Origin: a virus
IMG/VR virus record: IMGVR_UViG_3300046714_000146
Coordinates: 1 to 41,569 of that record
DNA length: 41,569 nucleotides
Reading direction: 5' to 3' (one strand)
Made by a program: the position numbers and the translations under genes. Positions 2,370-40,797 of this stretch are shown piece after piece. Position 1 is the first letter of the stretch. Each line of letters starts with the position of its first letter. A model generated the notes under the pieces. That model did not search any database. It was not told the DNA's origin and saw nothing but the letters and a program-made list of their open reading frames with translations.

Positions 2370-2780
2370 ATGAACCGAGACCAATTGCCTCCGCTTCCAG
2401 ACGATGTTCCGGCATTCCGGAGTCACCAAGCGACCAAAGCGGAGTGGATCAACGCCCTCAATCACGCCTATCGCCTGTTTGAGCAGCAGCCGACCGTGAA
2501 CTACGACGAGATTGCCAAGAAATACGCGGACATGTTGCAAATTGAGCTACGTAAACCGGGCACAGACGCCCTCCCGCCGCAGTCCTACTACAACGCCATG
2601 CAGCAGCGGCACGCGAACACGGCTCGGTTGCGGCCCCACGTCGACATCGTCCTCCCCCACGGGGCCCTCATGCCCAGCAACATCCGGTCAGACGTGTTCG
2701 GCGTCAACCCGAAAGTGCCGTGGGAGGTCAACGCGATCGATGTGTTGTTCCTCAAGGGCTGCGGCATCTCCCCCAAGTAG
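2370..2780 (+). CDS. Unknown protein directly upstream of terminase; possible small terminase
   Basis: A 136-residue protein (MNRDQLPPLP...) rich in helices. The region YDEIAKKYADMLQIELR followed by LPPQSYYNAMQQRH could be a DNA-binding helical unit. The position immediately before the terminase ATPase gene is where a small terminase subunit usually lies, but no small-terminase signature is evident, so that is inference from location. The ribosome site is weak (AATCGGGAAACC). Confidence 0.5.
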   Translation: MNRDQLPPLPDDVPAFRSHQATKAEWINALNHAYRLFEQQPTVNYDEIAKKYADMLQIELRKPGTDALPPQSYYNAMQQRHANTARLRPHVDIVLPHGALMPSNIRSDVFGVNPKVPWEVNAIDVLFLKGCGISPK

Positions 2781-2785
2781 TCCAG

Positions 2786-3817
2786 GTGGCGAAAAAGCGC
2801 GCCGGCGAGCCGGTATTCCTCGAGTCCAGCCCCCCGGCGCTCGAGTCCCTGCTGCCGGACTGGCCCGGGCTGATGACGCTCGCGATGGCGACGGCCTCGC
2901 AGCGGCGGCATCGGGTCGCCAGGTGTCGATGGTGTCAGCAGCAGTTCGTTAAAGTCTTGGAATCCGAGACCTTTCGAGGCCATTGGCTGTGCGAGACCGA
3001 AACCTGCGCGCTCCGGCAAATCCGCCGGGCAATTTTGGACGCCAAATCCGACCCGGCGCGTCCGTTTTTGTATGTCCCGCTCCCCTTGCAGGTCGATATG
3101 CAGGAATCGACCGTCAAACGGCTCCTGGTTGCTGGGGCCGCTGGGGCGTGCAAGTCCTACGGGGCGCGGTGGTCGTTGTACGCCCTCTGTCGCGAGGTGC
3201 CCGGCGCACAGTGCCTACTGCTGCGCTGCACCTACCCGGAATTACAGAAAAACCACCTGAAATTCATGGCGGCGGAAGCCCTGGCGCTCGGCGACGCGAA
3301 ATTCGTCGGCGGGAACATGCCCGAGATGCGGTTTGAGAACGGATCGCTGATTTCGATGGGGTATTGCGACAACCCAGGCGACGTCTCCAGGCATATGGGG
3401 CCGGAATGGGACAAAATCGCGCTCGAGGAAGGGAACAACATGGTCCCCGAGGCGATTACGGACATTCCCACGCGGGATCGGGGGTCCATCACCGCCCAGC
3501 GGGGCCTTGGGCATGAGCAGGACGGATCGACGCTTATCCTCGGCAACCCCGGCGGCCGCGGGATGCTCACCCTGATCGACCACTACATCACCCGGCAACC
3601 CGACCCGCTCGACTTTCCCGATTACAACGCCTCGCAATACGGCTTTATCCACGCCACGCTCGAGGACAACCCGTATTTGAAGGAAGATTATGCCGAGACG
3701 ACGCTCTCGGGCCTCTCGGCCGCGCGGTATCAGCAGCTCCGTTTTGGCGATTGGACCGTATTTACGGGGTCGTTCTTCGGGGAACTCAGCGATCGTCATT
3801 TTGCGACCGTGGCCTAG
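2786..3817 (+). CDS. terL: Terminase large subunit, ATPase half (split gene)
   Basis: This is the packaging motor ATPase, 343 residues from GTG 2786. An N-terminal zinc-finger-like cluster (C47, C50, C69, C74) precedes the motor. Walker A is GAAGACKS at 117-124, with Cys where the family has Gly before the Lys. WDKIALEEG at 208-216 is the Walker B/catalytic Glu region, and LGNPGGRG near 252-259 is the coupling motif. GDWTVFTGSFFGEL is the usual linker into the nuclease domain. The protein then stops, about 130-200 residues short of a complete large terminase; the nuclease domain is encoded separately at 4325-4957. The start is set by the stop of the preceding gene at 2780; an upstream in-frame ATG (2720) lies inside that gene. 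Confidence 0.88.
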   Translation: MAKKRAGEPVFLESSPPALESLLPDWPGLMTLAMATASQRRHRVARCRWCQQQFVKVLESETFRGHWLCETETCALRQIRRAILDAKSDPARPFLYVPLPLQVDMQESTVKRLLVAGAAGACKSYGARWSLYALCREVPGAQCLLLRCTYPELQKNHLKFMAAEALALGDAKFVGGNMPEMRFENGSLISMGYCDNPGDVSRHMGPEWDKIALEEGNNMVPEAITDIPTRDRGSITAQRGLGHEQDGSTLILGNPGGRGMLTLIDHYITRQPDPLDFPDYNASQYGFIHATLEDNPYLKEDYAETTLSGLSAARYQQLRFGDWTVFTGSFFGELSDRHFATVA

Positions 3818-3827
3818 ACATCGGCCG

Positions 3828-3968
3828 GTGGAGATCTACTGTCCCGTGAACGGGCGGGCGATGGATGCGTCCCATTTGATTGGGCCCGAACCCTTTCAAA
3901 TCACCGTCACGCCGACGTACGTCGAATTATTTCAGCGCATCGCGCCCAAGCGAGGTAGTCATGGCTGA
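3828..3968 (+). CDS. Tiny protein between the two terminase halves
   Basis: A 46-residue frame (MEIYCPVNGRAMDAS...) from GTG 3828, ending inside the start of the next gene (8-base overlap). One Cys near the N terminus and a strand-rich middle (FQITVTPTYVELF) are visible. The ribosome site is poor, so expression would depend on readthrough from the ATPase gene 11 bases upstream. It does not look like a remnant of terminase. It is real only if conserved in relatives. Confidence 0.4.
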   Translation: MEIYCPVNGRAMDASHLIGPEPFQITVTPTYVELFQRIAPKRGSHG

Positions 3969-4338
3969 CGAACGCACACCGCTCACCCTCGACGACGAAT
4001 TGGCGTACCGGACGTGGCTCGCCCAGAACAAGATTACCGACGCGGACCAGCCTGGGAGTTTCTACGACTACCGGGGCTTTTTCAAGGAATTCGGGTCGAA
4101 ACCGATGCAGTTCGGCCAGGATCACTTCACGGACACCTACAAGCAGCACGGGCACCCGACCTTCTCGGCTGAATCCCAGTATTCGCGGGGCCCGCAAGAT
4201 GGCGGGCGCTGGCTGGGCGAGGACACGCTGGTGGCCGCGCCGATGGCGTCCCACGCCGCCGCGCCGCTCAGCCCGAGCCAAGCGCATCAGCGCGCGATGG
4301 TGCATCTCCTCCGCGGACTCCCCGATGCGGGTCGATGA
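3961..4338 (+). CDS. Conserved phage head-module protein with HPTFSxES motif
   Basis: A 125-residue protein with GAGG seven bases before ATG 3961. The segments YDYRGFFKEFG, DHFTDTYKQHGHPTFSAES and GGRWLGEDTLV match a small, widely conserved phage protein found near terminase and portal genes in many podo- and siphophages, whose function is not established. Here it lies between the two parts of the large terminase, an unusual place. It overlaps the nuclease gene by 14 bases, so the two are probably translated together. Confidence 0.75.
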   Translation: MADERTPLTLDDELAYRTWLAQNKITDADQPGSFYDYRGFFKEFGSKPMQFGQDHFTDTYKQHGHPTFSAESQYSRGPQDGGRWLGEDTLVAAPMASHAAAPLSPSQAHQRAMVHLLRGLPDAGR

Positions 4339-4957
4339 CCTCGGCGCGTGTTTTTGGGGCTTCAATACGCCTGGGTGTTTCGTGTTTGCCCGGGTGCTGC
4401 CGAGCGGCCGGGTCATCATTCGCGCCGACCTCAAATTCGTGCGCTTGCCCGTCGCCGCGGTCGCCACCCAGGTGTTAGCCAGGGCGACGGCGCTCGGGAT
4501 TGACAGTTTTCGCGCGATCTATGGGAACCCCGAGATGTTTCCGTCGACCACCAAGACGGCATCGTCGACCTTGGAACCCGAAGCCCCGTCCTCGATGTTC
4601 GGGCGGGCGGGGTTGCCGATGATCCCGAGCGGCTCGAACCGCATCCACGGCTGGGCGCGGGTCCACGAATTTCTGCGGGACGCGCCGGACGGGGTGCCGT
4701 GGCTGCAAATCAACAAAGCCGAGTGCCCGTCGCTGGTTCGCACGCTGCCGACGCTCATCCAGAAAGAGAACGATCCGGACGATTGCGAGGGCGAGACGTT
4801 TGCGGCCGAAGCGTTGCGCGTGTTGTTGTCCTCGCGGCCCGCGCCCTCAGTGCGCGTGGTCCTGAAAGCGCCGTACCCGCCGTACACCGTGGGATGGTTG
4901 CGCGAACTGGACGACGCGGACGCGCGCAAAGGGAAATCTGGCGTCCTCGGGAGATAA
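4325..4957 (+). CDS. Terminase large subunit, nuclease half with altered active site
   Basis: A 210-residue protein that aligns end to end with the RNase H-like nuclease domain of large terminases: FWGFNTPG where the family has DWG-N-P, SGRVIIRADLKF, a YGNPEMF block where ADPSMW is usual, GLPMIPSGSNRIHGW, CPSLVRTLPTLIQ, and EGETFAAEALRVLLSSRP where DDHAADALRY is usual. Thus the first catalytic Asp is Phe (residue 10), the second is Asn (69), and the Asp-His pair is Thr-Phe with Glu nearby (157-162). By family knowledge this should be inactive as a metal-dependent nuclease, or should use shifted acids. It starts at ATG 4325 inside the previous gene. Its separation from the ATPase half is discussed in the findings. 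Confidence 0.82.
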   Translation: MRVDDLGACFWGFNTPGCFVFARVLPSGRVIIRADLKFVRLPVAAVATQVLARATALGIDSFRAIYGNPEMFPSTTKTASSTLEPEAPSSMFGRAGLPMIPSGSNRIHGWARVHEFLRDAPDGVPWLQINKAECPSLVRTLPTLIQKENDPDDCEGETFAAEALRVLLSSRPAPSVRVVLKAPYPPYTVGWLRELDDADARKGKSGVLGR

Positions 4958-4981: not shown

Positions 4982-7141
4982 ATGGCTGACCCGACGCTGC
5001 CGATCGACGATCCCGCGTCTCCTGTCAAAAAAGGCTCACCTGGGCCCGCCGTCGATCCGATGACGGAGGACGAGGTCCACAAGTGGGAATCGCGGATTGA
5101 CGCCGCGCTCGCGGTGCAAGAGCCGTACTTGAAGTGGTGGGACGTCGCCATCAAGAACTACTCGCCGAGCGTCAAAGAAAATCCGGACGCCTACTCGCTG
5201 GAGGTCCGGACCAATCGCCTGTTCTCCATTGTCGAGCGCAAAAAGGCTGACCTGTTCTACAAGCAGCCCGACTTGACCGTCGCGCCGTCGCCCCTCCTAG
5301 AGACGATTCCGAACAGCGGGCCGATGGTGGCCGCGCACGCCGCGCTCTTGAACCACAAACTCGGGCTGTACGGCGTCAAGGCGACCACGCTCGGGCGCGA
5401 CGCCATCTTCGCGTATCTGCTGTTTGGCGCGGGCTGGACGAAAATCTACTACCGGACCTACACGGTCGACGTCGAGCGGCCCAAGCTGGACCCGATGGGG
5501 CAACCGGCGCTGGACCCGATGGGCGCACCGCAGATGGAGACGGTCCCGGTCCCCATCTACACCGAATGCTGCTGGGAAGCGTTCTCGAATCGGCAAGCCT
5601 TGATCCCGTCCGAATTCCGTTCCACCGACTTCGACAAAGCGCCCTGGCTGGGCCAGCGGTTCACGATGTCGTTGACCGAAGCGCGCGGCATTTGGAAAGA
5701 CCACATCCCCGACGACTTCACCGGCTCCGGGGCGGGCGGGTCCGGCTCCAGCGACAAGGCGCAATGGTTCAACCACGGCGCGATTCCCGAAGCGACCCGG
5801 GAAAGCACCAAAGACGTCGTGACGGGCATCGAAATCTACTATCGGACGTGTCTCGAGAACCCGAAAATCGTCCATCCATTGCACCTGACCAAAGTGGTGT
5901 TCATCGACGGCTTGGACGACCCGGTCGAGCATCGCCCGTCGCCCGATCAGACCTTCGACGCGCAAGGGCGGCTCACCCCCGACTCGCTCATCGGCTACCC
6001 GTATCACCCGCTGACCATCCGGACGCTGACCGACTCGGCCTATCTCATGTCGGACGTCATGGTGGCGCTCCCGCAGACGCAGGAACTCGACAAATATCGC
6101 GTCCAGGGCGTGAAGCAACGCGACATCAACAACACGGTCGGCTACTACAGCACCGGGAAGCTGCCGCCCGCCGAACTGGACAAGGCGATCCGCGCGCCGC
6201 AGGGCGGGCTCGTGGGGTTGCCGGATGAAGCGTTCAACGACCCGCGCGGGCCGATCAAGTGGCAGGAACACGCGCCCATTCCGCCCGACAACTACTCGAT
6301 GTCGAGCCAGATCGACTTCGACCTGTCCCACACGTTCGCGATTGATGCGACGGCGGTCGGCGTGGCGAACCAGGGCACACAAACCGCGACGGAATCCAAC
6401 CTGCGGCAAGCGAACGTCAACGTCCGGCAAGGGGCCGACCAAGGCTTCGTGGCGGATTGGTTCGTGACGGGCGCGGCGAAAATTGCCACGTTGATGCAGC
6501 GGTACTACACGGTCGAGGATGCGGCGGCGGTCATCGGGCCGCAAGCCGCGCAGCAATGGGACCAGTGGCGGCATCAGGTGCCCGTGCCGATGGCGTTCAA
6601 GATGACGCCCGACTCGAGTCTCAAGAACGATTCCCCGCTCGATCGGATGCAGTTCCAGCAGTTGTACTCGTACGTGGCGCAAGACCCGCACTGGAACCGG
6701 GCCTACCTGAATGAACGGCTGGCCGAGAAATACCATCTCGACCCATCCAAAGTGATCGTCCCCGACCAGCAGCTCCCGCAACCGAAGCCGGAGCCGCCCA
6801 AGGCCACGCTGGCGTTCAAAGGCGAGGACTTGTCGCCGCTGTCCCCGCAGTCGCCGATCGTCTTGGACATCCTGATGAAACTCGGGATGAAGATCGACCC
6901 CGAGGCGCTCCTCACCGCGCATCAGATCGGCGAGGAAGCCGCGACGGCGGCGGTCATGGCGACCGCGCAACAGACCAGCGGCCAGGGGACGCCGCCCGAC
7001 ACCACGCACGGCGGCAAACTCGCCCCGGCCGAGACGCTCGACAAGCATCTGGCCGAGCGCACGGGCGGGATGCAAGGGTCCGGCGAGGCCAGCCCTGAGA
7101 TGGCGGGCGGAATGGCGACCGGGCCGAGCGGGGTCATGTAA
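4982..7141 (+). CDS. Portal protein
   Basis: A 719-residue portal that forms the dodecameric ring at the packaging vertex. The N-terminal part (DEVHKWESRIDAALAVQEPY, then NRLFSIVERKKADLFYKQPD) and the segment with FNDPRGPIKWQEHAPIPPD and an alanine/glutamine-rich helix (ATESNLRQANVNVRQGADQG) are typical of podovirus-type portals of 650-750 residues. The C-terminal 100 residues are Gly/Thr/Pro-rich and probably disordered. A short internal repeat, LDPMGQPALDPMGAPQ, lies near residue 165. It follows the split terminase after 24 bases, and the next gene begins one base after its stop. Confidence 0.9.
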   Translation: MADPTLPIDDPASPVKKGSPGPAVDPMTEDEVHKWESRIDAALAVQEPYLKWWDVAIKNYSPSVKENPDAYSLEVRTNRLFSIVERKKADLFYKQPDLTVAPSPLLETIPNSGPMVAAHAALLNHKLGLYGVKATTLGRDAIFAYLLFGAGWTKIYYRTYTVDVERPKLDPMGQPALDPMGAPQMETVPVPIYTECCWEAFSNRQALIPSEFRSTDFDKAPWLGQRFTMSLTEARGIWKDHIPDDFTGSGAGGSGSSDKAQWFNHGAIPEATRESTKDVVTGIEIYYRTCLENPKIVHPLHLTKVVFIDGLDDPVEHRPSPDQTFDAQGRLTPDSLIGYPYHPLTIRTLTDSAYLMSDVMVALPQTQELDKYRVQGVKQRDINNTVGYYSTGKLPPAELDKAIRAPQGGLVGLPDEAFNDPRGPIKWQEHAPIPPDNYSMSSQIDFDLSHTFAIDATAVGVANQGTQTATESNLRQANVNVRQGADQGFVADWFVTGAAKIATLMQRYYTVEDAAAVIGPQAAQQWDQWRHQVPVPMAFKMTPDSSLKNDSPLDRMQFQQLYSYVAQDPHWNRAYLNERLAEKYHLDPSKVIVPDQQLPQPKPEPPKATLAFKGEDLSPLSPQSPIVLDILMKLGMKIDPEALLTAHQIGEEAATAAVMATAQQTSGQGTPPDTTHGGKLAPAETLDKHLAERTGGMQGSGEASPEMAGGMATGPSGVM

Positions 7142-11906: not shown

Positions 11907-12883
11907 ACGTCGGCGAGATCCTCACGGAGCTGTATCGGGATCTCGAATATGAGGACGTGCCCCCGGCGTCGATCACGACGCGGCTCAAGGGCTACGTGCA
12001 ACGCGCGTACGTCCAGATTTTGCGCGAACCCGATCTGAGCCAGCTCCGCGACACGCTCGCGCCCCTCGTGTTCACCAGTGTCCTGAACCAGTCGATCTAT
12101 GGGCTCCCGTCGCAAATCTCGCGCGTGGTCGCCATCACCGACCGCGTCAACAACCGGCTGCTCACGCCGATTTCGCTGGTCGAGCTGCGGCTGAACGATC
12201 CGGGGTTGACCGCGACCGGGACGCCGTGGGCCTGGGTGCCGATCGGCTACGGCCCCGCGCAGACCGTCCCAGCCTCGACGGGGATCTGGGTCGCGTCGAC
12301 CTCGGCGGCTGACGCCGCGACCGTGACAGCCCAGGTCAATGGCGTGCGCGCGAACGGCTTGCCGACCGGCGACCTGGTGGCCGCGCTGAACGGGGTCACG
12401 CGCGTCCCGGTCGGGACCGTGACGGACCTCGTCGACGTGCAAGGCATCTCCGTCACGTCAGCCGCGCCCACCGCGGGCACCATCACGTTCAGCGACGCGG
12501 CCGTCGCCGGGAATGTGATCGCCCAGATTGCGCCCGGCCGCACCGCCCCACGCTATTTCCGCGTGCAGTTGTATCCGATTCCGGATGCGGGCCAGCCCTA
12601 CTCCGTGGACGGGCAGATGCACGTCCCCGATCTGGACGACGCGGAGGACGTGCCGCTCTTGCCGCCCGACTTCCACAGTCTCCTCGTGACCGGCGCGCTC
12701 ATCCACGAGTACAAGCGCAAGGACGATCAGGCGCGCATCGTGACGCTCTTGCCGGATTGGCAGGTCGGGATCGCGCGGCTCAAGCACGCCATCAGCGCGA
12801 CGGCCACCGACATCCCCGTGAAAGGCCAACCGGTCGCCCAACGGTTCTCGCGCTTCGGCGCGTGGACCCCGTCCGACTGGTAA
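11903..12883 (+). CDS. Head-tail connector protein with inserted Ig-like domain
   Basis: A 326-residue protein, GTG start overlapping the previous stop. The N-terminal helical part (MNVGEILTELYRDLEYEDVP, with YVQRAYVQILREPDLSQLRD following) and the C-terminal part (PRYFRVQLYPIPDAGQPYSV; LLPPDFHSLLVTGALIHEYK) follow the phage adaptor family that docks under the portal. Between them, residues about 125-205 form a Val/Thr/Ala-rich beta module (TVTAQVNGVRANGLPTGDLV; TISV-type strands) resembling a bacterial Ig-like insertion. It is followed by the tail hub gene after 7 bases. Confidence 0.7.
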   Translation: MNVGEILTELYRDLEYEDVPPASITTRLKGYVQRAYVQILREPDLSQLRDTLAPLVFTSVLNQSIYGLPSQISRVVAITDRVNNRLLTPISLVELRLNDPGLTATGTPWAWVPIGYGPAQTVPASTGIWVASTSAADAATVTAQVNGVRANGLPTGDLVAALNGVTRVPVGTVTDLVDVQGISVTSAAPTAGTITFSDAAVAGNVIAQIAPGRTAPRYFRVQLYPIPDAGQPYSVDGQMHVPDLDDAEDVPLLPPDFHSLLVTGALIHEYKRKDDQARIVTLLPDWQVGIARLKHAISATATDIPVKGQPVAQRFSRFGAWTPSDW

Positions 12884-12890
12884 CGACCGC

Positions 12891-14924
12891 ATGGCGGGCC
12901 GGGCGTTTCAGAACGGGGAACTCGTCTGGACGGACAATCGCGGCCGGAATGGCTTCGATCTCCCCTCCGATATTCGGCAAGGCCAATCGTGCGCGTGCCA
13001 GAATATTCGCCTCGAGCGCAATCAACTTGGCCGGAAGCGCCACGGCGCCGCCTCGCAAGCGCTGACCGATTGGTTGCCGACACAAGGCATCACGGCCCTC
13101 GGGCGCTTTGTCCCCGCCCAGGACGAAACCAAAGCCGAACTCTTTATGGTCGCCCGCACCGGCAACGACCAGATGGGGCACGTCGTCGGCGGCGTCTACA
13201 AGAGCCTGTTCCTCGTCGACAGCATCGCGTCCCGCCCGCAGGACACGCATTACGCCGCGCTCAACGGCAAAATGTACATCGCGTACGACAGCATCAGCGG
13301 GTCGACGTTTCAGCATGTGAATCGGTTGCACGTCTACGACCCGCGCACGGTGGCGGAAATCGGTCAGGACACGGTGCGCCCGGTGGGGATTGCGCGGCCG
13401 GTCGCGGGGCCCGTGGTCACGAACACGGGGGCGGGCACGTATGCGCCCGTCCTGCGGTATTACGCCTATGCGTGGCGCGCGAACTACGCGGACGGCACCC
13501 TCCAACGCCAAAGCAATCTCAGCGCGGCCACGGCGTTCACGCCCTCGGGCACGGGCCTCGCCGCGCGGGTGGCGCGCGGCACGCCGCCCGCGTTTGAGAA
13601 CACGACCCATTGGGTCGTCTACGGCTCGGCCGACAACACGGCGTACTTTGAACTCGCCGTGTTGGCGCTGGCGTCGACGGTCTGGGATGACACGACCCCG
13701 CCCACGCTCTACGGGACACATCCCGCTGCGCCCGCGCCGGGGACGTTCAGCCCGTGGCCGAGCGTCAAGTTTCTGCTCTCCACGGGCGTGCGGCTGATCG
13801 GGTTCGGCGTGTGGGAACCGGGCGCGCAGTCGGAAGTGCCCGCGGTCTCGGGCCGCGTGTATTTCTCCCCCGTCCTCGATACGAGCGACTTCGACGACGA
13901 CGAGCGCGTGAGCAACGACGTCGTCGGCTTGTCGGCGACGGGCCAAGGCTGGATCGACGTCGGGCGCAATTACGGGGCGGAAGATCGCGCGATCTCGGGG
14001 CCCTATGACGGGAACATCCTCGTGTTCCAGTCCCGCGGCTTTTACATGCTCCTCGAGACGGGCGATGTCCAGGCTCCGTACGAGCGCGTGGTCATGAGTC
14101 CGTATATCGGCGCGGTCAATCAGTGGTCGACGTTCATGGGCGAGGACGAGCAAGGCCGCGCGTGCGCCTACTGGCTCGATCCGAATCGCGGCCCCTACCG
14201 CTATGGCGCGCACGGGCTCCAGTGGCTCGGCTACGACGTGCAGGACATCTGGAAAACGGTGAACCTGAACGCGACCCTGAAAGTCGCGCACGGCTGTTAC
14301 GACCCCGAGCGGCGGGTCTGCAAGTGGTGGCTCGCCACCGGCACGAACAACGAGCCGGGGCCCACCGATCCGATCTTGGTGTTCTCGGTCCGCGACGGCG
14401 AGACGACGGACAACGACGGCGTGCGGGAAGGCTGGACGATCGACTACGGCGCGATTGCCAACGCGATGTGTTCGTGCGTCTTTTCCACGGTCTTTGGGAC
14501 GGTCATGAGCCGGTCGCTGAGTGCCTACGTGGGCATGACGAATGCCCTCGTTCGCACGGACGATCCCACCATGACCAGCGACCTCGGCCAGCCGTTTCAA
14601 GCGTTCGTGCGCTCGCGGGCCTGGGAAGTGCAGCCCGAGACGGCCAACAAGCGCGTCGGCCACTGTTACCTCAAAGCCATGTCCGCGGCGGGCGTCGTGA
14701 TCCAACAGTCGTTGCTCAAAAACTACGGCGACAGCGCGGCCCGCGTCTCGACGTTGTCGATTGCCCCGCAGAGCGGCGAGACGCGCGTCGTGCGGCGGTT
14801 CCAAGACGCCGCGCTCGTCGATGCGTACACGTTTCAAACCACCATCGGGGATGTCGCCGCCGTCGCGAACGCCTGGACCCTGGACGAATGGCTCTGCACG
14901 CTTGAAGCCGCCGAGCAACGGTAA
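12891..14924 (+). CDS. Large tail protein, probable tail hub or stabilisation protein
   Basis: A 677-residue protein (MAGRAFQNGELVWTDNRG...). The opening with GFDLPSDIRQGQSCACQNIR, repeated beta blades such as HYAALNGKMYIAYDS and VNRLHVYDP, and TTHWVVYGSADNTAYFELAV followed later by GRVYFSPVLD fit the large beta-propeller-like tail proteins of podoviruses that cap the connector (P22 gp10-like role). This is by layout, not by a diagnostic motif. The stop overlaps the start of the fibre gene (ATGG/TAATGG at 14922-14926). Confidence 0.65.
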   Translation: MAGRAFQNGELVWTDNRGRNGFDLPSDIRQGQSCACQNIRLERNQLGRKRHGAASQALTDWLPTQGITALGRFVPAQDETKAELFMVARTGNDQMGHVVGGVYKSLFLVDSIASRPQDTHYAALNGKMYIAYDSISGSTFQHVNRLHVYDPRTVAEIGQDTVRPVGIARPVAGPVVTNTGAGTYAPVLRYYAYAWRANYADGTLQRQSNLSAATAFTPSGTGLAARVARGTPPAFENTTHWVVYGSADNTAYFELAVLALASTVWDDTTPPTLYGTHPAAPAPGTFSPWPSVKFLLSTGVRLIGFGVWEPGAQSEVPAVSGRVYFSPVLDTSDFDDDERVSNDVVGLSATGQGWIDVGRNYGAEDRAISGPYDGNILVFQSRGFYMLLETGDVQAPYERVVMSPYIGAVNQWSTFMGEDEQGRACAYWLDPNRGPYRYGAHGLQWLGYDVQDIWKTVNLNATLKVAHGCYDPERRVCKWWLATGTNNEPGPTDPILVFSVRDGETTDNDGVREGWTIDYGAIANAMCSCVFSTVFGTVMSRSLSAYVGMTNALVRTDDPTMTSDLGQPFQAFVRSRAWEVQPETANKRVGHCYLKAMSAAGVVIQQSLLKNYGDSAARVSTLSIAPQSGETRVVRRFQDAALVDAYTFQTTIGDVAAVANAWTLDEWLCTLEAAEQR

Positions 14925-22646: not shown

Positions 22647-24569
22647 ATGCCGCAAGCACCGCAGGAGTGGGAAGCCACCGACCCCAAGACGGGCCGCACC
22701 ATCGTCATCGTCAGTCCGACCCCGCCCACGGACGACGAGATCGATGCGAAATTTGCCGAAATGGGCGCGCCTGGGGGCGCGCCTGGTGGGGGCGGGCTCC
22801 CCGCCGGGGCGTTTATGCCCCCGGTGTCCTCGCATACCCCCGCCGCGCCCCCGCGCCCGCCGACCTTCCCCGAACGGGCGCTGCGGTCGGTCGCGGACAT
22901 CAATCTGGGGGCGGCAAAAGGAGTCGGGGCGACCGCGCTCCGCGCCGTGCGCGCGATTGGCGCGGGCGACCCGGTCTCGGCGACCCGGCAATTGCTCTTT
23001 GGCGGCGATCAGACCCCCTCGATGCTTCGACCGACGAACGCCGCGCAGGGCTATGGCGCGTTCATGGGCGACACGGCGACCGGGGCCCTCGCGATGGGGG
23101 CGACGGCTGCGCCCTTGCGGGCGCTCAGTTTCGTGCCGCGTGTCTTGGGCAACGCGGCCATGAGCGGTGGCATTGCCGCGTTCCAAGGGAACGACCCGGT
23201 GGTCGGGGCCGCGGTGGGCGGGGGGACGCACCTGATTGGCGAGGGGTTGGGGGCCACCGCACGAGCGGCAGCGGGTCGCATCCTCCGCACCAACCCCACG
23301 GTCGCCGAGAACGCCCTCCGCTACAAGGCCATGCCGGGCCTCATGCGGACCGGCGACGAGCGGGTCGTGTCGCGCCTCGGCGCGGCCAATCAAGACGTGA
23401 CGGATTACCTCGCGGGCGCGCCCGGCAACACCCCGCGCGGCTTCACCGCCGGCCCCGCGATGGGCGACGTCACGATGAACGCCGAGAACAACCTCTCGCC
23501 TGAACCGGGCCGGATCGCGCGCGATGAGGCGACGTCGATTGTCCGCAATCTCCTCAAGCGGCAACCGGCGCGCGACCTGTACGCGAAAACGATCAATTCG
23601 CAAAACACGCCCGGCGAGTCCATCGGGGCGTTCATGAATCGCGCCGCGGCCTATGACGCGCGCAATGCGGTCGCGGCGGCGGTGCCAGGGGCGCGGCCAG
23701 GCATTCAGAAAGTGAACGATCTCGCCCAAGTCTACGAAGCCTATCGGGGCGGGCTGCAAAACATGATCGACCCCACGAAGGTGCCGACGATTCAAGCGCG
23801 CATCGGCCTCGGGGTCGCCAACCGCTTGGCCGGACCGATCAGCCAAGGCATGTACCGCTCCGGGAACGTCTTGCAGAATCCCGCGATGCGCGCGGCGATG
23901 ACCTCGATTCTGTCGCGCGACCCGATGCTCGGGATGCCGTCCCGCACCGGGGCCCCGCCCGTCGCGCCGGGTCCGGGCCCGCAGGGAGCCGCCCCGACCC
24001 TCTCGCCGGAAGAATTGGCGATTCTCGACATGCAGCGGACGCGCGGCACGACGCCGACGCCCGCCGCCGCGCCCGCCGCCGCGCCCGCCGACGTCGCCAC
24101 GCCGTCCGCGCGGCCCGCGAACCTCTCGATCACGCAGCCGGACCCGGAGCGATTTACGGACAAGGTGCGGCGCGTGCAGCAGCGCATGGCGGAGCTGGGG
24201 CATCCCGTGACCATCGTCAGTAAGGGCGGCGGGCGGAACTCGACCGACCAAGCCGCGCTGTACGCGCAAGGGCGCACCGCGCCCGGACCGATCGTGACGA
24301 ACGTCGACGGGACGACGACCAAGTCCACGCATCAACTCGGGACGGGCTCGGATTTGGTGTTCGTGGTCAACGGCCAACCGTCGTGGGCCGAGAACCTGCC
24401 GTGGGATCTGCTCGGCAAGACCGCGAAAGCGGAAGGGTTGGCCTGGGGCGGCGACTGGAAAGATCCGGTCGATCGGCCCCACGTCCAACTCTATCCGGCG
24501 CGCCCGCTCGTGGGCCTGAGTCCGGCACTCGCCGAGCGCGGCGTGCCCCCCGGCGGCTACGGCCCCTGA
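22647..24569 (+). CDS. Internal virion protein with C-terminal M15-type peptidase
   Basis: A 640-residue protein. The N terminus (MPQAPQEWEATDPKTGRTIV) and Pro/Gly-rich stretches lead into a helical and Gly/Ala-rich middle. From about residue 495 a cell-wall peptidase domain appears: FTDKVRRVQQRMAELGHPV, DQAALYAQGR, STHQLGTGSD (His562 and Asp569 as zinc ligands), GLAWGGDW and DRPHVQL (His612). This is the L-Ala-D-Glu/D-Ala-D-Ala peptidase family. Carried on a virion protein it probably cuts peptidoglycan during DNA entry, and it may also serve lysis because no separate endolysin is visible. Confidence 0.75.
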   Translation: MPQAPQEWEATDPKTGRTIVIVSPTPPTDDEIDAKFAEMGAPGGAPGGGGLPAGAFMPPVSSHTPAAPPRPPTFPERALRSVADINLGAAKGVGATALRAVRAIGAGDPVSATRQLLFGGDQTPSMLRPTNAAQGYGAFMGDTATGALAMGATAAPLRALSFVPRVLGNAAMSGGIAAFQGNDPVVGAAVGGGTHLIGEGLGATARAAAGRILRTNPTVAENALRYKAMPGLMRTGDERVVSRLGAANQDVTDYLAGAPGNTPRGFTAGPAMGDVTMNAENNLSPEPGRIARDEATSIVRNLLKRQPARDLYAKTINSQNTPGESIGAFMNRAAAYDARNAVAAAVPGARPGIQKVNDLAQVYEAYRGGLQNMIDPTKVPTIQARIGLGVANRLAGPISQGMYRSGNVLQNPAMRAAMTSILSRDPMLGMPSRTGAPPVAPGPGPQGAAPTLSPEELAILDMQRTRGTTPTPAAAPAAAPADVATPSARPANLSITQPDPERFTDKVRRVQQRMAELGHPVTIVSKGGGRNSTDQAALYAQGRTAPGPIVTNVDGTTTKSTHQLGTGSDLVFVVNGQPSWAENLPWDLLGKTAKAEGLAWGGDWKDPVDRPHVQLYPARPLVGLSPALAERGVPPGGYGP

Positions 24570-38858: not shown

Positions 38859-39575
38859 ATGTCACGTTCTGTCGCTACTCCGATCGTTCCGGCCGTTCTC
38901 GTTAACACGATCACGACTCGTCAGCGGATCGATATGGCGATTCGTTCCGGTCTGCACGTTCTCCTGTACGGTCCTCCCGGTTTCGGTAAATCGTTTGTTG
39001 CACGTCAGAGCATTGTGGAACGTCTCGGCGTAGAACCGGCGGCGATCGTACTTCCGGAGGACTGCGCCGTGGCGGAATTGCGAGGCCACTACATCCCGCG
39101 CGGATCGGAATGGATCTGGAAAGATGGGCCGGTTACACGCGCTCTGCGCGACGGTTCCCCGGTGATCCTCGATGAGATTTCTCACGCCTCGGCCGAGGCC
39201 GTCACGTTTCTCCATCAGTGTCTCGATCGTACGCCTCGGATCGAATTGCCGACATGCGAGGCCGTGACAAAACTGCCGTTTGTGGCGATCGCGACGACCA
39301 ATGATGATCCGGGCCGACTCCGTCCGGCATTGTTGGACCGGTTCGGCGTGGTGATCCATGTCGATAAGCCGTCCGATGAGGCGTACGACGCGCTCATGTT
39401 CGGGGACATTGCCCGGAAGGAAGGCGCGACGTCACTACGCTCATGGGCGAACCTTGAAACCGCCGTCCGGAACGGCCTCGAATTGTCCGAGGCCGCCGAA
39501 TTGATTTTTCCGGGCCGAGGACAGGATTTTTGCGACGCGCTATCCGTCGCCTCGATCGCAAAGGCGGCGAAGTAA
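38859..39575 (+). CDS. MoxR/CobS-type AAA+ ATPase
   Basis: A 238-residue single-domain AAA+ protein; AAGGA lies about ten bases before ATG 38859. Walker A GPPGFGKS (38-45), Walker B VILDE (102-106), sensor-1 ATTND (145-149), and RLRPALLDRF (153-162) with the arginine finger are all present. This group acts as a hexameric chaperone or remodelling ATPase with a VWA partner, as in MoxR-VWA pairs and CobS-CobT. The next gene is exactly such a partner, one base away. The substrate is unknown. Confidence 0.85.
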   Translation: MSRSVATPIVPAVLVNTITTRQRIDMAIRSGLHVLLYGPPGFGKSFVARQSIVERLGVEPAAIVLPEDCAVAELRGHYIPRGSEWIWKDGPVTRALRDGSPVILDEISHASAEAVTFLHQCLDRTPRIELPTCEAVTKLPFVAIATTNDDPGRLRPALLDRFGVVIHVDKPSDEAYDALMFGDIARKEGATSLRSWANLETAVRNGLELSEAAELIFPGRGQDFCDALSVASIAKAAK

Positions 39576-39576
39576 C

Positions 39577-40797
39577 GTGTCCGCGCTCACGTCCTCACCG
39601 TTTGTAAACATTGTCGCGCCTCACGGTGATCCGTATGCCGTGCAGTCCTCCGGAGGACTGCACGGTTGGACGGACATTGTCGGCCGTCGTATGGCCGTAC
39701 CGGATCGGACCGGTGATCCCGCGATTGATCATCTAGTCCTCATGATCCGGAGACATGAGATTTTGCACGCGCGGTACTCCAAAAAATTCACCCGGATACA
39801 TCCCCAATACGATCAATGTCTCCAATGGGCCGAGGATTGGAGGATCACGCAGATCGGACTCCGGGCCGGTATTCTCGCGACGACGTGTAATCGCTACAGC
39901 GAATGTGCGATCTGCCATGCCACACGCGCGGGGATTATCACCGGCCTTACACACGTCCTCACCGCGCTGAAATGTCCCGATCCGAAGGAAGGCGCGGAGA
40001 TTGTGATCTCGCTACTTCAGATCGAGTACGAACCGCGCTACGGATCGACCGAGGCCGATCTTATGGCGCGACGTCTCGTGCTGAAAACACGCCGGAAGTA
40101 CCTTGATCCATTGTCCGGCCGTACGCTGAAAACCGTCGCGGATCGACTCATGGCGCTATTGTTTGCCGGTGGCGAGAAGCTACCTCGGCCCGCCATGCCG
40201 TCGCGCCGTGGCGGTGAGGACGGACGGCCGGACTGGGGACACCTAGACGTGTCGTACGCTCACCTGTCACGTACTGCGGCGAGGCCGTCTGTACGGGCGT
40301 ACCGGCCGTCTGAGGACGGTGCGATCCCTACGGCCATGTACCGCGCCACGTTAGACAATCGCGTGTTTAGGCGGAAGGTACGGCAGTCCGGCGCAAGCGT
40401 ACTGATTGACGGTTCCGGATCAATGTCATGGGAGGACGGCCAGATCGAGGACGTCCTCGAAGTATGTCCGGCCTCGGTAGTCGGTCTGTATGAGGCCGAC
40501 TCGTACCGGGGAACCTTACACGTCCTCGCCGAGCGCGGACAACACACGGCCGAGCTGCCACACATGCGGGGATCGAATTGCGTAGACGGTCCGGCATTGG
40601 AATGGTTAGCACGTCAGCCGGAACCGCGCTATTGGGTATCAGACGGTGGCGTAACTGAGCGCGGCGATCGGTTTTCCGTCCGCGCCTCACGTGAGGCTGA
40701 CGCGCTCTGTCTCGCACACAAAATCACGCGCGTCAGAAACGGATCGGATCTGATTGATCGTCTACAGAAAAGCGGAGGACACAATGTATCGCTGTGA
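39577..40797 (+). CDS. VWA protein with N-terminal HExxH peptidase-like site (CobT-like)
   Basis: A 406-residue protein, GTG start directly after the ATPase stop. Residues 56-68 (MIRRHEILHARYS) hold an HExxH zinc motif (His60, Glu61, His64), and WAEDWRITQIG (85-95) supplies the Glu-Asp-x-Arg element that follows HExxH in CobT-like and gluzincin-like phage proteins. From about 270, SGASVLIDGSGSM is a VWA domain start with an intact metal-site DxSxS (278-282). It is probably the effector or adaptor driven by the AAA+ protein, able to bind or cut a target protein. Confidence 0.8.
   Translation: MSALTSSPFVNIVAPHGDPYAVQSSGGLHGWTDIVGRRMAVPDRTGDPAIDHLVLMIRRHEILHARYSKKFTRIHPQYDQCLQWAEDWRITQIGLRAGILATTCNRYSECAICHATRAGIITGLTHVLTALKCPDPKEGAEIVISLLQIEYEPRYGSTEADLMARRLVLKTRRKYLDPLSGRTLKTVADRLMALLFAGGEKLPRPAMPSRRGGEDGRPDWGHLDVSYAHLSRTAARPSVRAYRPSEDGAIPTAMYRATLDNRVFRRKVRQSGASVLIDGSGSMSWEDGQIEDVLEVCPASVVGLYEADSYRGTLHVLAERGQHTAELPHMRGSNCVDGPALEWLARQPEPRYWVSDGGVTERGDRFSVRASREADALCLAHKITRVRNGSDLIDRLQKSGGHNVSL

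Follow-up and report, generated by a model that had tools for sequence, protein, structure and literature searches.

The large terminase (TerL) is normally one polypeptide. Annotators of actinophage genomes use separate names for genes encoding its ATPase domain and genes encoding its nuclease domain. When T4 gp17 was split at the linker between the two, both enzymatic activities were kept and translocation was abolished (PMC3012670), which makes a natural split of interest. The same result lends experimental support to a premise of an earlier sequence-only reading of the DNA described here, namely that motor and nuclease have to be joined.

The coding sequence of TerL is interrupted in several described phages, and group I introns are known to occur in terL. 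Splicing was shown for ICP1 (PMC10448857) and inferred for phD2B (PMC4246154), and the Jug phages present a further case (PMC12363816). In other words, an intron-split terL is rejoined, or thought to be rejoined, at the RNA level. The two TerL domains of Parabacteroides phage phiPDS1 are two coding sequences left without an explanation, and a codon-table or assembly issue was suggested as possible (PMC10773633); this is a single isolate and is likened to the present locus by description only. Outside packaging, a phage ribonucleotide reductase gene is split in two by a homing endonuclease and still functional, as cited within PMC10448857. In phi29, the ATPase chain of gp16 carries a vestigial nuclease whose fold lacks catalytic residues (PMC7672431).

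The locus described here has features of each of these systems. Both of its TerL halves are homologous to, and similar in fold to, the two-domain enzymes T4 gp17, D6E, SPP1 gp2, P22 gp2, and Sf6 gp2, and they keep the Walker A lysine and serine, the catalytic glutamate, and the RNase H-like fold. However, they are encoded by two genes, and the nuclease lacks the three catalytic aspartates. The loss of catalytic residues from a nuclease fold is shared with phi29 gp16, but here the fold is encoded by a gene of its own. The phi29 system also has a protein-primed, unit-length genome and a pRNA; here, family searches gave no replication gene of the phi29 kind, the genes scanned gave no polymerase match, the record has no terminal repeats, and the Rfam search covered the surroundings of the junction. 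Unlike in the intron-split terL genes, no intron was found in the locus, and in some relatives the halves abut. As with the split ribonucleotide reductase, an essential gene is present as two coding sequences, each half-protein having its own start and stop, and an HNH gene lies at the split in two relatives (L168 and L160). On the other hand, the split gene is a packaging motor whose function in pieces we infer, and neither the locus nor most of its relatives have an endonuclease gene at the split. A literature search for a split terminase yielded only the intron cases and the phiPDS1 remark; subscription journals were thinly covered, so that wider precedent is possible. In the literature searched, no precedent was found for a conserved clade in which TerL takes two genes, its halves reassort, and the nuclease subunit is dead.

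Organization of the locus

The window (the whole stretch of virus DNA that was analysed, 41,569 nucleotides, positions 1-41,569 of IMG/VR record IMGVR_UViG_3300046714_000146) has a GC content of 64.7%. The sequence-only reading described a TerL divided into an ATPase gene and a nuclease gene with two further genes between them, and the open frames do lie where it had placed them. The ATPase frame is followed by a 46-residue frame, a gene named after its HPTFSxES motif, the nuclease frame, and then the portal gene (Table 1). Judged from GC by codon position, the coding frame shifts from the ATPase to the HPTFSxES gene and again to the nuclease, and the coding signal is strong on all three of these main genes.

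Table 1. Features of the split terminase locus (positions in the window)
Feature	Position	Strand	Remarks
Gene directly 5' of ATPase half	2370..2780	+	Possible small terminase by position only
TerL ATPase half	2786..3817	+	343 aa; GTG start; ends in hinge after GSFFGEL...H
Walker A, AGAAGACKS	3131..3157	+	Gly before Lys replaced by Cys; K and S retained
Walker B region, KIALEEG	3413..3433	+	Catalytic Glu E215, 39/39
46-residue open frame	3828..3968	+	Between TerL halves; doubtful gene
HPTFSxES gene	3961..4338	+	125 aa; between TerL halves
TerL nuclease half	4325..4957	+	210 aa; own ATG overlaps end of HPTFSxES gene; RNase H-like fold
First catalytic Asp replaced by Phe (F10)	4352..4354	+	D in 34/42 relatives
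Second catalytic Asp replaced by Asn (N68)	4526..4528	+	D in 36/42 relatives
Third catalytic Asp replaced by Glu (E162)	4808..4810	+	D in 34/42 relatives
Portal protein	4982..7141	+	Directly 3' of nuclease half; phrog_156, E 2e-5

Only one of the two intervening frames stood up as a gene. The HPTFSxES gene has strong codon periodicity, its motif occurs in at least 120 IMG/VR stretches in a DNA pattern scan, and homologues 50-65% identical lie after TerL in L018 and after the portal gene in L141 (labels of the form L### denote IMG/VR contigs). It is a real and widespread gene. It also moves within the packaging module, being found after TerL at 4221-4856 of L018, after the portal gene at 2472-2888 of L141, and between the halves in the window. 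By contrast, the 46-residue frame has a weak codon signal (GC3 of 0.68) and no relative was found for it, which makes it doubtful as a gene. Sequenced phages offered no match to the portal or the HPTFSxES protein, and the gene that immediately precedes the ATPase half had no family match.

Searching the 41.6-kb window record turned up no further ATPase or nuclease domain, and each of the 12 records searched gave one ATPase match and one nuclease match. Thus, no sign of another complete large terminase, which would have spoken against a split enzyme, was seen in the window record. The record, metagenomic and linear and of unknown completeness, has no terminal repeats. Elsewhere in the window, a gene for an AAA_5 MoxR-like ATPase is followed directly by a phrog_33218 gene of unknown function (38859-40797), and a 640-residue protein carries an endolysin-type domain at its C-terminus (22647-24569).

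The two halves of the terminase

The profile search that the earlier reading had proposed placed the ATPase half in PHROG 979, annotated 'terminase large subunit' (E 1e-16). Its AlphaFold model (pLDDT 88.7) is matched best in the PDB by the TerL ATPase domains of D6E and P74-26 (E about 1e-9); after D6E come the ATPase domains of P74-26, Sf6, and T4. In an alignment of 39 ATPase sequences, G120, K123, and S124 of Walker A are invariant, and the window has all of them together with the catalytic glutamate expected of an ASCE ATPase; the other invariant residues are also retained. Position 122, immediately before the Walker A lysine, is unusual: it is Cys in the window and Ala or Ser in the sister lineages (21 G, 14 S, 2 A, 1 C, and 1 M over the alignment). 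N-terminal to the P-loop there is a four-cysteine motif resembling a zinc ribbon (C47, C50, C69, and C74); the first three cysteines are common to 25 of the 39 relatives and C74 to 20.

The nuclease half had no match in Pfam, PHROG, or NCBIfam. It matches the nuclease domains of annotated phage TerLs in tblastn (best E 1e-5) and has a profile match to 5oe8. Its AlphaFold model (pLDDT 91.4) is closest in the PDB to D6E TerL, followed by the nuclease domains of SPP1 and P22. The C-terminal RNase H-like domain of a TerL is therefore present as a predicted fold. The MRVxDL sequence at its N-terminus is common to L168, L172, L151, L173, and L152.

Together, the two frames account for a whole TerL. 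When aligned to a profile built from nine full-length TerLs, the ATPase frame covers positions 29-281 and the nuclease frame continues at 289-464. These stretches adjoin, so almost no sequence is missing at the break, and the ATPase half ends at the linker as had been proposed. The two domains nevertheless lie on separate frames with a gene between them and not on one polypeptide.

Conservation of the split among related viruses

Is the split a property of these viruses or of one contig? Relatives were opened up by the HPTFSxES DNA pattern and then by an alignment of capsid proteins, and an ATPase alignment added more. No relative emerged when IMG/VR was scanned singly with P0001, P0002, or the portal protein, and the sequences of the nuclease alignment were too diverse for it to serve as a query. 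Scanning bacterial and archaeal genomes for the capsid protein gave nothing; the genome relatives reached with the ATPase alignment were distant, and none was seen to be split. The relatives are metagenomic, linear contigs of unknown completeness.

Both TerL domains were found on one frame in 108 loci and on two frames in 14, which make up ten distinct lineages: the window, L136 (same as L137, L161, and L162), L159, L160, L151, L172, L168, L173, L152 (same as L174), and L191. In every case the break lies in the hinge, beyond the conserved FF and HV residues at the end of the ATPase domain. What lies at the break varies. The halves abut with overlapping stop and start codons in L151 and L172 (ATGA) and in L173 (GTGA), and they are separated by 30 nt in L152. 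An HNH_3 gene fills the gap in L168 (3069-3587; E 2e-13), and a gene of a different HNH family (2370-3332; E 3e-11) lies with others in that of L160. In L136, L159, and the window, differing small genes are found. L173 also has about 540 extra bases relative to L152 between the nuclease half and the portal gene (about 5830-6370).

These comparisons bear on whether the gap of the window might be an assembly chimera or a sequencing error in a normal TerL. The window is a single contig. However, the same split occurs in nine other lineages, including the sisters L136 (identical on two contigs), L159, and L160, whose gap contents differ, as well as five lineages of another clade and L191 (known to be split from one contig). 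In addition, the nuclease half is 58% identical to that of L135, which likewise runs straight into a portal gene (59% identical to that of the window), and all three main genes of the window carry the strong codon signal. An artefact is thus extremely improbable, and comparison of independent contigs confirms the split as a conserved feature and not an accident of assembly. The suggestion that nature has dissected the motor at its linker is supported accordingly by ten lineages.

Could the halves be exons, from which an unrecognized self-splicing intron or intein is removed to give one TerL chain? The record of group I introns in terL and the HNH genes at the split of L168 and L160 are in keeping with such a history. 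On the other hand, no Rfam intron was found at the window junction with lax thresholds (the search of the window covered the surroundings of the junction) or in eight relatives at the gathering threshold. The overlapping stop and start codons of L151, L172, and L173 leave no room for an intron, and most of the window gap is a conserved protein gene flanked by halves with their own starts and stops. Splicing is therefore considered very unlikely. The window record has no Pfam HNH gene; a loose HNH-like pattern in a frame at 12822-14921 was set aside as a substitute since it lacks Pfam support. For the abutting lineages, programmed frameshifting at the ATGA and GTGA overlaps might produce a fused chain and make the split only partial. 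No slippery site was obvious by eye, and frameshifting is inapplicable to the window, L136, L159, L160, and L168, which have genes between the halves; the odds of this explanation are minimal. A two-gene TerL is the reading followed below.

Loss of the nuclease active site

The earlier reading had recognized a separate nuclease-domain gene. This holds for the fold and for the TerL matches but not for the catalytic residues. In 42 aligned nuclease domains, the three catalytic columns read F/N/E in the window, K/D/H in L136, H/N/L in L159, and H/D/R in L160. The last two sites of L135 are D/H, its first site being off the contig. The other split lineages in the alignment (L151, L172, L152, and L191) keep D/D/D. 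All three metal-binding aspartates were indispensable for nuclease activity of G20c TerL (PMC5389553). With F/N/E in place of the acid triad, the nuclease half of the window clade is, as judged from these residues, catalytically dead: a vestigial nuclease fold and not a working cutter.

The loss of the active site is not tied to the split. Unsplit L142, L144, and L146 read -/H/H, which indicates that the nuclease was lost more than once and independently of the split. Unsplit TerLs without the nuclease catalytic acids were observed in L018 (2571-4217), L142, L144, L145, and L146.

The dead half could be a little-used remnant in decay. Between the window and L135, dN is 0.33 and dS 1.38 for the nuclease half, compared to 0.35 and 1.27 for the portal gene. 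The resulting dN/dS of about 0.24 for the nuclease half, which is rough because dS is high, speaks against free decay. These substitution rates show the nuclease half evolving under constraint similar to that on the portal gene.

Separate histories of the two halves

In the ATPase tree, the window forms a clade with L136, L159, and L160 (support 100/100). A second split clade comprises L151, L172, L168, L152, and L173 (100/99) with the unsplit L169 as its sister, and L191 sits among unsplit forms. Three changes of state are needed, in the bootstraps as well, which translates into two or three fissions. Three changes are likewise required by the nuclease tree, although its well-supported branches do not make them necessary. 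The split thus probably arose two or three times on these trees, unless fusions intervened.

Evidence of exchange comes from the second clade, in which active sites are intact, and not from the clade of the window. For L151 and L172, identity is 92% until 29 nt ahead of the junction and drops to 69% over the tested stretch that follows. For L173 and L152, it increases from 62% to 95% at a point 30 nt ahead of their junction. Neither change point was equalled in 300 permutations (0/300 each). Furthermore, the ATPase tree joins L151 with L172 and the nuclease tree joins L151 with L168, each with support of 100/98. The identities and trees show that the halves in two pairs of split relatives have separate histories. 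Exchange at the junction is the pattern that would be expected of interchangeable subunits acting in trans. However, the junction is also where recombination is least harmful in any case. Reassortment lends indirect support to the idea that the two halves may assemble into a working enzyme.

A probable two-subunit packaging motor

The window probably encodes a packaging motor of two subunits, the second of which is catalytically dead. In this proposal, TerL of the window phage would be made as two polypeptides, the ATPase half would drive translocation of DNA, and the RNase H-like half without its acids would probably bind the ATPase, DNA, and/or the portal non-covalently. The second half would take over the non-cutting work of the C-terminal domain, such as docking, DNA gripping, and regulation. 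The gene may have undergone fission in the exposed hinge on two or three occasions, with insertion of mobile or cargo genes (HNH in L168 and L160, small genes elsewhere) as a consequence or a cause of fission, and the nuclease may have decayed in the ancestor of the window clade.

How would the halves work together? The loss of translocation on splitting the T4 linker means that assembly in trans cannot be assumed; we infer that the halves meet in one motor and that this motor packages DNA. A dead second subunit for DNA gripping or portal docking would make sense given what is known of T4 and phi29. It has been suggested that DNA is moved by the C-terminal domain of T4 TerL, and T4 nuclease mutants still package linear DNA (PMC3012670); the vestigial nuclease of phi29 gp16 still binds DNA (PMC7672431). 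Genome ends would then come from another enzyme, or no cut by TerL would be needed. There is about an even chance that the wider picture holds, in which the engine and the DNA-gripping domain are exchangeable subunits and one lineage has a non-cutting second subunit that serves only translocation or docking, its genome ends being made otherwise.

Alternatively, the nuclease half may stand outside packaging, as a remnant or recruited elsewhere, leaving the ATPase alone as a minimal motor like that of phi29. The missing catalytic acids of the window clade fit this, as does a weak match of the ATPase profile to the packaging ATPases of asccphi28 and phi29, which appears beside closer TerLs. The retention of a full fold, of the place before the portal gene, and of portal-like constraint argues against the ATPase working alone, and so does the persistence of DNA binding in the vestigial nuclease of gp16. 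This explanation is regarded as unlikely, and the two-subunit motor with a dead second subunit is preferred.

Significance

Packaging models assume a covalent coupling of ATPase and nuclease, in line with the behavior of T4 gp17 cut at its linker (PMC3012670). Phages with a two-chain TerL would show how the parts are coupled without a linker, and reconstitution could start from their separate parts. Split lineages with either a live or a dead nuclease, together with unsplit lineages whose nuclease is dead, make up a natural series on the non-cutting roles of the C-terminal domain of TerL. Such halves may be missed or misread in gene calling and in phage taxonomy based on TerL, the nuclease half of the window, which has no family match, being an example. 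Need the motor and the cutter be joined? The clade of the window offers a natural test of this question.
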